Shown: positions 28,501 through 33,502 of the stretch, one piece after another
How positions within the stretch are numbered: position 1 is the first letter of the stretch
Layout of the letters: every line of letters starts with the position of its first letter
NCBI GenBank assembly: GCA_024643795.1
Contig: JAHEMF010000010.1
Location: 1 to 41,908, forward strand
Reading direction: 5' to 3'
Source: Bacteroidota bacterium
GTDB taxonomy: Bacteria; Bacteroidota; Bacteroidia; AKYH767-A; OLB10
DNA: 41,908 bases
The notes under the pieces: generated by a model
Database searches by the model: none
What the model saw: the letters and a program-made list of their open reading frames with translations, nothing else
What the model was told of the DNA's origin: nothing
Position numbers and translations under genes: made by a program

Positions 28501-28517
28501 ATAGGTCAGTGTCCTAT
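28501..28517 (-). terminator. weak candidate terminator overlapping the crcB stop
   Basis: On the minus strand ATAGG pairs with CCTAT around a 7-base loop and is followed by TTTTTA. The 5-bp, AT-rich stem is weak, but its position at the end of the five-gene leftward operon fits termination. Confidence 0.3.
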
Positions 28518-28886
28518 CTGTTTACCGGCCATTATTCCCGCCACCAGAAATAGCAGGCAGAGTACTACACTCAGCAAAATATTGATCGCCATGGCTGTAA
28601 AGTTTCCATCTTTCATAAGCTGGTAGCTTTCTGCTGTAAAAGTTGAAAAAGTGCTGAATCCGCCACAGAAACCCACAGTTAACATCAACCTTACCGGCTC
28701 ACTTATATTGAAACGTTCGAGGCCTAAGGTAACCAGCAAACCCAGTATGAAAGAGCTTAAACAATTTGCGGTTAATGTGGCTAAAGGGAAGTTGGCAATA
28801 CGGTCCGACACTATCACTAAACTCAACAGATAACGGGAAACACTTCCCAAACCGCCACCAGCAAATATAAAGATCAGCTCTTTCAT
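28506..28886 (-). CDS. crcB: CrcB/Fluc fluoride ion channel
   Basis: The 126-aa product begins MKELIFIFAGGGLGSVSRYLLS and has four hydrophobic segments, with ANCLSSFILGLL and the family motif VGFCGGFSTFSTFTAE. Fluc channels are dual-topology dimers that release fluoride from the cytoplasm. A longer reading frame exists upstream, but the ATG at 28884-28886 matches the family N-terminus and overlaps the end of the PAP2 gene by four bases. A single-gene dimer is expected, since no second crcB is adjacent. No fluoride riboswitch is visible; the gene is at the end of an operon. Confidence 0.92.
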   Translation of the reverse strand: MKELIFIFAGGGLGSVSRYLLSLVIVSDRIANFPLATLTANCLSSFILGLLVTLGLERFNISEPVRLMLTVGFCGGFSTFSTFTAESYQLMKDGNFTAMAINILLSVVLCLLFLVAGIMAGKQIGH

Positions 28887-29458
28887 TTGTCTGTCGCTTT
28901 GGGAGGCGGGCCGGATATCATTACGTATATCAATACTGTTATAAGAGCGGAAAGTATACCTATTATCCAACCACCAAAAATATCGGCCGGAAAGTGTACA
29001 CCCATATAAACTCTGCTGTACGATACTATCAAAACGTATGCGGCCAGTATCCATGTAATGTATCTGAACCTGTTTCGGGTAAGGAGCAGAATGTAAGTGA
29101 ACAGCGCCATCACATTTGCTGCATGCGATGAAACAAATCCCCACGCACCACCACATTTGTTGTTAATGGTATGCACATCAAACATCAGACTAGGATCATG
29201 GCATGGCCTGTCACGCATCACAGTATTTTTTATCAATACCGACCCCTGGTCGCTGAAGGTGATCAGCACAGCTGCCAGCACAATCATGAGTATACTCTGG
29301 TTACCGAATTTCGAATACAAGAACCAGGCTAAAAATGCATACAACGGCATCCAGGTTATCTTGGCAGCAGCCCACCACATGATCACATCCATAAATGCAC
29401 AGTGTGCCCCGTTTATCATTCGGAACAGATCGTGATCCAGATTTATCAGAGTATCCAT
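28883..29458 (-). CDS. PAP2-superfamily membrane phosphatase
   Basis: The 191-aa membrane protein shows the three PAP2 signature parts: KNTVMRDRP (Lys77-Arg84), a variant of PSGH as FVSSHAAN (His112) and SRVYMGVHFPAD (Arg149, His155, Asp159). Several hydrophobic segments surround them. Related enzymes dephosphorylate undecaprenyl pyrophosphate or lipid A/phosphatidyl phosphates on the periplasmic side; the substrate here is not determined. Its ATG directly follows the obgE stop (TAAATG) and its own stop overlaps crcB. Confidence 0.9.
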   Translation of the reverse strand: MDTLINLDHDLFRMINGAHCAFMDVIMWWAAAKITWMPLYAFLAWFLYSKFGNQSILMIVLAAVLITFSDQGSVLIKNTVMRDRPCHDPSLMFDVHTINNKCGGAWGFVSSHAANVMALFTYILLLTRNRFRYITWILAAYVLIVSYSRVYMGVHFPADIFGGWIIGILSALITVLIYVMISGPPPKATDK

Positions 29459-30507: not shown

Positions 30508-31086
30508 TTATTTTGCCACGGCATCTATTTGGCCGCAGATCCTGCTAAAGATCTCTTCAACCGTACCAATCCCGCTAATAGTGTGGTATTTCCCCTGGTT
30601 GTTATAATAGTCTGCAACAGGAGCAGTTTTCAGGTGATATTGTTTGATCCTGTTCTTAATGATCTCAGGATTTGAATCATCAGCCCGGCCGGAATCTTTT
30701 CCTCGGGCCAGCAGTCTTACTATCAATTCATCTTCAGGAACATCAAGTGCAACCATTTGTGTGATCTCCGATCCTACTTCCATCATCAGCTCGTCAAGTG
30801 CCCGGGCTTGTTCGTTGGTTCTTGGAAAACCATCGAAAATAAATCCTTTTGCTCCGCTATGTTCTTTAAGAAGGTTTCTTATCATGCCAATTACCACATC
30901 ATCACCCACAAGCATACCCTTATCCATAAGTTGTTTTGCTTTCATTCCTAACTCGGTTTGCGCTGCGATCTCACCTCGCAATATGTCACCAGTAGATAAG
31001 TGCTTGAGTTCATATTTCTTGATCAACAACTCTGATTGAGTCCCCTTGCCGGCCCCCGGTGGGCCAAATAATACCAGATTAAGCAT
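30508..31086 (-). CDS. adk: adenylate kinase, short-lid form
   Basis: The 192-aa enzyme shows the P-loop GPPGAGKGT (8-16), LSTGDILRGEI, GFIFDGFPRTNEQA and the lid segment LARGKDSGRADDS, followed by NRIKQYHLKTAPVADYY. The lid is short and without zinc Cys residues, giving the roughly 190-aa form. It interconverts AMP, ADP and ATP. The start ATG overlaps the end of hpt by eight bases, placing the two nucleotide genes in one transcript. Confidence 0.96.
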   Translation of the reverse strand: MLNLVLFGPPGAGKGTQSELLIKKYELKHLSTGDILRGEIAAQTELGMKAKQLMDKGMLVGDDVVIGMIRNLLKEHSGAKGFIFDGFPRTNEQARALDELMMEVGSEITQMVALDVPEDELIVRLLARGKDSGRADDSNPEIIKNRIKQYHLKTAPVADYYNNQGKYHTISGIGTVEEIFSRICGQIDAVAK

Positions 31087-31648
31087 GCTTTGATTGCGGT
31101 TTTAATACATAAATATCTTTCAGGTTCCTTCCTTCTCCATCGAAATCCATTCCATATCCTACCAAAAAGTCGGATCCTGTCTCAATTCCTATAAAATCAG
31201 GTTTAATATCCTGTTCAAGTTTTTCAGGTTTAAAAATAGCGGTGGCTATTTTAACTGAAGCAGGATGTAATTTTTTTAATTGTTCAGCAAGGTAAAATAC
31301 AGTGTTTCCTGTATCAACTATGTCTTCAACAATAATTACATGCCTGTTCTTAATATCAGTTCCCAACGACAGTTCTTCACGGACTTTCCCTGTAGACTCC
31401 AAACCTTCATAGCTTGAGAGTTTGGTGAAACTGATCTCACACTCCAGGTCTATCTCACGCGCCAGGTCCGATAAAAAAACAAAAGCCCCGTTTAGTACAC
31501 CTATCAACAGAGGTTTTTCGCCGCTGTAAGCAGCACTGATCTTGCTGCCCATAAGCTGTACCATTTCACGTAAGCGGGCTTCTGTGATACTTACCACGAA
31601 TTCCCTGCCGTGAATAATGATACTCCTATCTGTTGCTATTTGAGGCAT
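31079..31648 (-). CDS. hpt: hypoxanthine phosphoribosyltransferase
   Basis: The product (189 aa from ATG 31648) has the PRPP loop VIIVEDIVDTGNTVFYL, the N-terminal LIGVLNGAFVFLSDLARE and the closing FLVGYGMDFDGEGRNLKDIYVL, all typical of hypoxanthine/xanthine-type enzymes. It salvages purine bases with PRPP. An in-frame TTG at 31672 would add eight residues but fits the family less well. It heads the leftward operon and diverges from purK, so salvage and de novo purine genes share a 121-base promoter region. Confidence 0.94.
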   Translation of the reverse strand: MPQIATDRSIIIHGREFVVSITEARLREMVQLMGSKISAAYSGEKPLLIGVLNGAFVFLSDLAREIDLECEISFTKLSSYEGLESTGKVREELSLGTDIKNRHVIIVEDIVDTGNTVFYLAEQLKKLHPASVKIATAIFKPEKLEQDIKPDFIGIETGSDFLVGYGMDFDGEGRNLKDIYVLKPQSKHA

Positions 31649-31769
31649 TGAGGTGATTTTAAGAGGCCGCAAGATACGAAAAATGGGCCTTCGAGCCTTA
31701 TTTGAGCCGTAACCGTTGGGAATGTTGGCAGGGTATTACGACTTTTGTAGTCCTAACTATCAGTTATTT

Positions 31770-32899
31770 ATGGGGAATAAGATCCGGATACCATCATTAG
31801 CCATCCTGGGAGGCGGGCAACTCGGCCGTATGCTCATACAAAAGGCTATCGATTATAATATTCACACTTCAGTGCTGGACCCCGACCCTGATGCTCCATG
31901 TCGGGACTTGTGCAACCATTTTGTTAATGGCAGCTTTAAAGATCATGATACGGTTCTGGCATTTGGCAAGCAGGCTGATGTGATCACCGTTGAAATAGAA
32001 CATGTGAATGTGGATGCCCTTGAGGAACTTGAAAAAATGGGCAAAGCCGTTTATCCCCAACCCTCGGTTTTGAGGATCGTGCAGGATAAAGGGGTACAAA
32101 AGCAATTCTATAAAGATCATAATATCCCAACTTCAGAATTTGTGTTGGTGAAAGATAGAGCTGAAATATCGCAACACCAAGATTTTCTTCCGGCTATGCA
32201 AAAGTTAAGATTGTCGGGGTACGATGGACGAGGAGTAAAAGCTGTAAAAACAAAAGAACAAATCACAGAAGCTTTTGATGAGCCTTCAGTTCTTGAAAAG
32301 TTCGTCGATTTTCAGCGTGAGATCTCCGTGATCGTATCAAGGAATAAAGACGGACAAATAAAAACATTTCCGGTAGTGGAGTTGGAATTCAATGATGAAG
32401 CCAACCTCGTTGAGTACCTGTATTCACCTTCACAACTTGCAAGGGAGATCAACGAAAAAGCAACTGAGGTAGCAACCCGGGTCATCCGAGAGCTCAATAT
32501 GATAGGTTTGAAATGTTCGTCGACAAAAATGGTAATGTGTTGGTGAATGAGATCGCCCCGAGGCCACACAATAGCGGCCACCATTCTATTGAAGGCAACG
32601 TATCATCCCAATATGAAAATCATCTCAGGGCAATCATGAACTGGCCTGCCGGCGATACATCTGTGCTCTCTCCTGCAGTTATGGTAAATATTCTGGGTGA
32701 GAAAGGATTTACCGGCAATGCATTATATGAGGGTTTGGATGCAGTGCTTGATATTCCCGGTTCATTTGTTCACTTGTATGGAAAGAAAATAACCAAGCCA
32801 TTCAGGAAAATGGGACATGTTACGGTAATAGCACCTACATTAGAGGAGGCAAAGCAAAAAGCGCTGCAGGTTAAAGACGTGCTAAAGGTCGTTGCCTAA
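31770..32899 (+). pseudogene. purK: purK (N5-CAIR synthetase) interrupted by a frameshift, probably a 10-nt deletion
   Basis: The first frame (ATG 31770) encodes the ATP-grasp start LAILGGGQLGRMLIQKAIDY, KLRLSGYDGRGVKAV and VLEKFVDFQREISVIVSRN, then runs past NMIGL into an out-of-frame end at 32544. The second frame starts with MFVDKNGNVLVNEIAPRP at 32513 and completes the protein to 32899. Homologues carry four residues of type FAVE between L and MF; here only AA is left between TTG (32508-32510) and ATG (32513), so 10 bases appear missing. The lost Glu corresponds to the metal-binding Glu of the MECF motif in E. coli PurK. Both parts look under selection until recently. purE follows 96 bases later. 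An assembly error is possible. Confidence 0.85.
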
Positions 32900-32995: not shown

Positions 32996-33502
32996 ATGAG
33001 CGGAACAAATAAAATACAGGTAGGTATCATCATGGGAAGTAAATCTGATCTTCCTGTTATGCAGCAGGCAGCAGATGTGCTGGATGTTTTGGGTGTGAGT
33101 TATGAAATATCTGTTGTTTCGGCGCACCGTACACCCGATCGTATGTTTGAATACGCAAGCAGTGCCCGCTCACGGGGATTGAAGACCATAATTGCCGGTG
33201 CAGGAGGAGCTGCACACCTTCCGGGGATGGTTGCATCGCTCACCACCTTACCCGTGATAGGAGTTCCGGTACTTTCATCCAACTCTATTGATGGTTGGGA
33301 TTCGGTGCTTTCAATTTTGCAAATGCCCAACGGGGTTCCTGTAGCTACTGTAGCCCTTAATGCTGCGCAAAATGCGGGCATCCTTGCGGCACAGATACTT
33401 TCAGTACATGATGAGGCATTGGCAGAACGACTCCTTGAATTTAAGAACAACCTGAAGAACAAAGTTATAGAGGCTGATGCCTCACTTAAGAATAAAGCAT
33501 AA
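32996..33502 (+). CDS. purE: PurE, N5-carboxyaminoimidazole ribonucleotide mutase
   Basis: The 168-aa enzyme has [29 protein letters not shown] with the catalytic His, [13 protein letters not shown] and [23 protein letters not shown], which are class I PurE motifs. It moves the carboxyl of N5-CAIR to make CAIR, the step after PurK. It begins at ATG 32996. With purK broken, this enzyme would lack its usual substrate unless carboxylation occurs spontaneously at high CO2 or another PurK exists. Only a weak 4-bp hairpin follows (CGGG/CCCG near 33519-33536). Confidence 0.96.

Follow-up and report, generated by a model that had tools for sequence, protein, structure and literature searches.

The only purK gene of this Bacteroidota genome is split into two reading frames at a junction where 10 nt carried by all 71 comparable relatives are absent. 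We lean towards a single recent 10-nt deletion as the explanation, carried by the sequenced strain itself or by the variant that predominates in its population.

Layout of the purK locus and size of the gap

The gene lies in the window, by which we mean the whole 41,908-nt stretch analysed (contig JAHEMF010000010.1), and occupies positions 31770-32899 on the forward strand, its two frames being split at 32505-32513. The first frame starts at the ATG at 31770 and runs to ...ELNMIGL at 32510, beyond which an out-of-frame tail (KCSSTKMVMCW, 32511-32546) lies outside every family match and meets a stop at 32544-32546, after 11 codons. The second frame, EMFVDKNGNVLVNEIAPRPHNSGHH..., continues from 32510 to a stop at 32899, with its first ATG at 32513. 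Profile searches assigned the pre-ATP-grasp domain and most of the ATP-grasp domain to the 5′ piece (31770-32510; PF22660, PF02222 positions 1-142, TIGR01161 positions 2-244), and the ATP-grasp remainder and PurK_C to the 3′ piece (32510-32899; PF02222 positions 145-179, PF17769, TIGR01161 positions 247/249-362). The TIGR01161 scores of the two pieces, 203.7 and 142.8 bits, both fall short of the curated cut-off of 318.4 bits, and a full-length match to the profile is required for PurK. The initial annotation had called purK broken at this position, and both the call and the placement hold, with the two frames matching adjoining stretches of the PurK and ATP-grasp profiles.

In the usual family layout, adk and hpt lie back to back with purK, and purE follows purK in most genomes; synteny identifies as conserved neighbours an hpt-type phosphoribosyltransferase gene (31079-31672, reverse strand; PF00156) and adk (30508-31086, reverse strand; named from its own sequence). 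Downstream, purE (32996-33502, forward strand), the sole copy, is intact as had been claimed, scoring above the TIGR01162 cut-off. Relative to the PurK family (N5-carboxyaminoimidazole ribonucleotide synthase; TIGR01161, PF02222, PF17769; E. coli structure 1B6S), the window gene thus shares domain order, motifs and adjacency to purE, but is split by a 10-nt gap into pieces that score below the cut-off and lacks three residues that all relatives have.

We sized the gap by tblastn of both purK pieces against related loci, which yielded 71 comparable relatives. The spacing between the two flanks was exactly 9 nt, or three codons, in every one of them, whereas the window pieces overlap by 1 nt (spacing −1); exactly 10 nt are therefore missing, the number originally proposed. 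In relatives the gap is filled by LAV (55 of 71), FAI (6), FAV (6), MAV (2), LSV (1) or YAV (1). The missing residues had been described as of FAVE type: the three residues before the glutamate are indeed lost, but F-A-V is a minority form and L-A-V the usual one. The window purK accordingly has no uninterrupted x-A-V/I-E strand leading into this glutamate.

The TTGAA retained at the junction could belong to the end of one flank or of the other, which would be compatible with deletion between two short TTG repeats. The codon that such a repeat needs, GTT, accounts for only 41% of valine codons in the window genome. A short direct repeat behind the deletion is plausible when judged from the flanks in this way, and replication slippage between short repeats would be the likely cause.

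Coding capacity across the junction and the purine pathway

The metal-ligand glutamate was initially thought to have been deleted, a point on which the alignment disagrees: GAA at 32510-32512 is kept, shares the frame of the 3′ piece and lines up with residue 226 of E. coli PurK (PDB alignment). We take Glu 226 of E. coli PurK to be a metal ligand. Its retention bears on whether purK might still function, whether through translational frameshifting or as two polypeptides translated independently. Were the ribosome to slip by −1 near the junction, at GGT TTG, the frame would be restored and this glutamate kept, yet the product would still lack the three preceding strand residues, which are absent from none of the 71 relatives. 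The sequence at the junction, TTTGAAA, is no slippery heptamer of the standard X XXY YYZ form, and a search for a stimulatory RNA structure downstream of the junction found an unremarkable fold (z −1.34), so that heptamer, structure and family-matching product, the marks of programmed ribosomal frameshifting, are all wanting. The 3′ piece does possess its own ATG with an AGG six bases upstream, but translation as two separate chains would leave the glutamate out as well. We therefore regard a functional purK of either kind as very improbable. The likeness of the AGG (window 32504-32515) to a ribosome binding site is probably fortuitous.

Loss of purK function is by far the likeliest outcome. 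The proposed deletion would shift the frame, end the protein 11 codons later and remove three residues of the strand leading into the metal-binding glutamate, with the result that no active N5-CAIR synthetase would be made. AIR carboxylation might then proceed through non-enzymatic formation of N5-CAIR at high CO2 followed by PurE, or the cell might rely on purine salvage, as the literature on purK mutants suggests. High CO2 or overexpression allows PurE to dispense with PurK (PMC3261824, PMC10912719); additional PurE rescues E. coli purK mutants (PMC10912719, PMC3261824), cyanobacterial purK mutants require high CO2 for growth, and many Chlorobiota possess only PurE (PMC10880623). The window genome, with purE and no intact purK, resembles such purK-deficient, purE-keeping microbes (methanogens, PMC3261824; Chlorobiota, PMC10880623; laboratory purK mutants), but differs from them in that its purK is almost whole and its PurE is of the type paired with PurK.

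The genome is a 2.88-Mb draft in 110 contigs that is 99.78% complete and whose nearest named genomes are ~60% identical. A profile search of the assembly for a second purK found none, in keeping with the original reading; the only other PurK-like match, on contig C28, was rejected as PurT, scoring 569 bits on its own model. An intact second purK allele was likewise absent from the other contigs of the assembly, and a search of viral contigs returned nothing. The genes purE, purC, purH, purL, purM and purT are present and open, with purL and purM named by the length and AIRS_C matches of proteins on C30 and C105. The match of a purF-like gene (635 aa) falls into two blocks and stays below the purF cut-off.

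PurE types and the PurK-less lineage

Genomes with purE and no PurK above the cut-off exist in the same order, accounting for 5 of the 28 surveyed at a completeness of at least 95% (G014, G024, G028, G033 and G035). The PurK-like proteins tested in G024 and G033 were rejected as PurT, length and score make the ones in G014 and G035 PurT-like, and G028 has no PurK-like protein at E below 1e-30. In G014, G024 and G028, purE lies directly beside hpt-adk, and purK is absent there.

In a FastTree phylogeny, the PurEs of the five purK-less genomes (loci L126/L137 in G014, L133 in G024, L136 in G028, L134 in G033 and L135 in G035) formed one clade with the second PurE of G034 (L138), with a support of 0.94. 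Members of this clade are marked by Val 78, Leu or Ile 41 and Ala 81, whereas the 64 PurEs whose genomes also contain purK all carry Met 78 and Val 41, and 61 of them Ser 81. Because E. coli PurE also has Ala at the position equivalent to 81, this site alone is not diagnostic. The co-occurrence raises the hypothesis that the clade is PurK-independent. These proteins with their marker residues are a better lead than the purK break itself, one that would let the dependence of PurE on PurK be tested by gene swaps.

The window PurE, with Met 78, Val 41 and Ser 81, falls outside this clade and belongs to the PurK-paired type. It contains both class I motifs (including SAHR), scores 217 bits against TIGR01162 and by its motifs did not come out as class II (AIR carboxylase). 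Its marker residues and its place outside the clade bear on the idea that the purK break is a natural step towards the PurK-less state of relatives, in which PurE would assume the role of AIR carboxylase. Five members of the order do keep purE without purK, three of them at the same adk-hpt-purE locus, but their PurEs form a lineage with residues of its own that the window PurE does not share, and we consider such a step unlikely. Equally doubtful is a broader scenario in which the purEK pair has repeatedly been replaced in the order by a PurK-independent PurE lineage and the window genome has just lost PurK while retaining its old PurE.

Age and origin of the break

Outside the gap, the window purK keeps all 68 of the 68 sites conserved at ≥95% in 50 relatives, and no second break occurs in the gene. 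Few of the 51 root-to-tip distances compared are as small as that of the window gene, and accelerated evolution of purK was rejected on these grounds. The break is consequently very recent, confined to a strain, or an assembly error. In its single frame break at a repeat-compatible site and its premature stop, the gene resembles an ordinary pseudogene frameshifted by a short deletion, and it shows a defining feature of one, a frame break relative to intact orthologues as the sole lesion; it differs in showing no further decay and in being the single copy of a gene in a core pathway.

The frame break is not a product of chance. A codon model was used to scan 437 kb of the window genome, a heuristic that overlooks breaks where genes are short or atypical. 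By the length of its out-of-frame tail the purK junction came out on top, and in none of the candidates ranked next did the two sides match successive parts of a single protein family. By family matches, the other leading candidates were ordinary neighbouring genes, apart from two that were uninformative, with one side matching nothing. A candidate second break in the window (28506-29458, reverse strand) was rejected, as it consists of PAP2 and CrcB-like genes that overlap in different frames, both domains being complete. The scarcity of frame breaks in the 437 kb, together with the family checks, argues against a generally error-ridden assembly; it says less about a local error.

Such a local fault is the main competitor to a real deletion: the assembly or consensus may be wrong at this site, or the assembler may have chosen a minority variant, the living organism having an intact purK. 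We assign this account a substantial probability, somewhat below even. The genome is a draft in 110 contigs, purK is without signs of decay, and purE and the other checked purine genes are present. The window PurE, moreover, is of the type that always occurs with PurK, and its mismatch with a broken purK casts some doubt on fixation of the lesion; judged from gene content and PurE type, a fixed loss would probably be costly. Against an artefact, errors in short reads or homopolymers do not typically produce a clean 10-nt loss, the sampled sequence otherwise contains few comparable breaks, and no alternative allele is found in the assembly. We favour a real deletion because all 71 relatives carry exactly 10 nt that the window lacks, the assembly holds neither another purK nor an intact second allele, the loss is unlike a homopolymer error, and other organisms survive without purK.

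On either account we regard the break as an ordinary recent single-gene lesion or an assembly slip, and not as a new kind of feature. Should it be real, a requirement for purines or high CO2 is predicted for the strain despite a nearly complete-looking pathway, given that its PurE is of the PurK-paired type; automated reconstruction would miss this dependence, and beyond annotation the break would matter little.

A separate observation concerns an aldehyde dehydrogenase gene (locus L116, 2854-3708; G000 contig C45, reverse strand), whose 285-aa product extends over no more than the first half of the Pfam profile; since the next gene encodes a methyltransferase, the catalytic half does not lie alongside.
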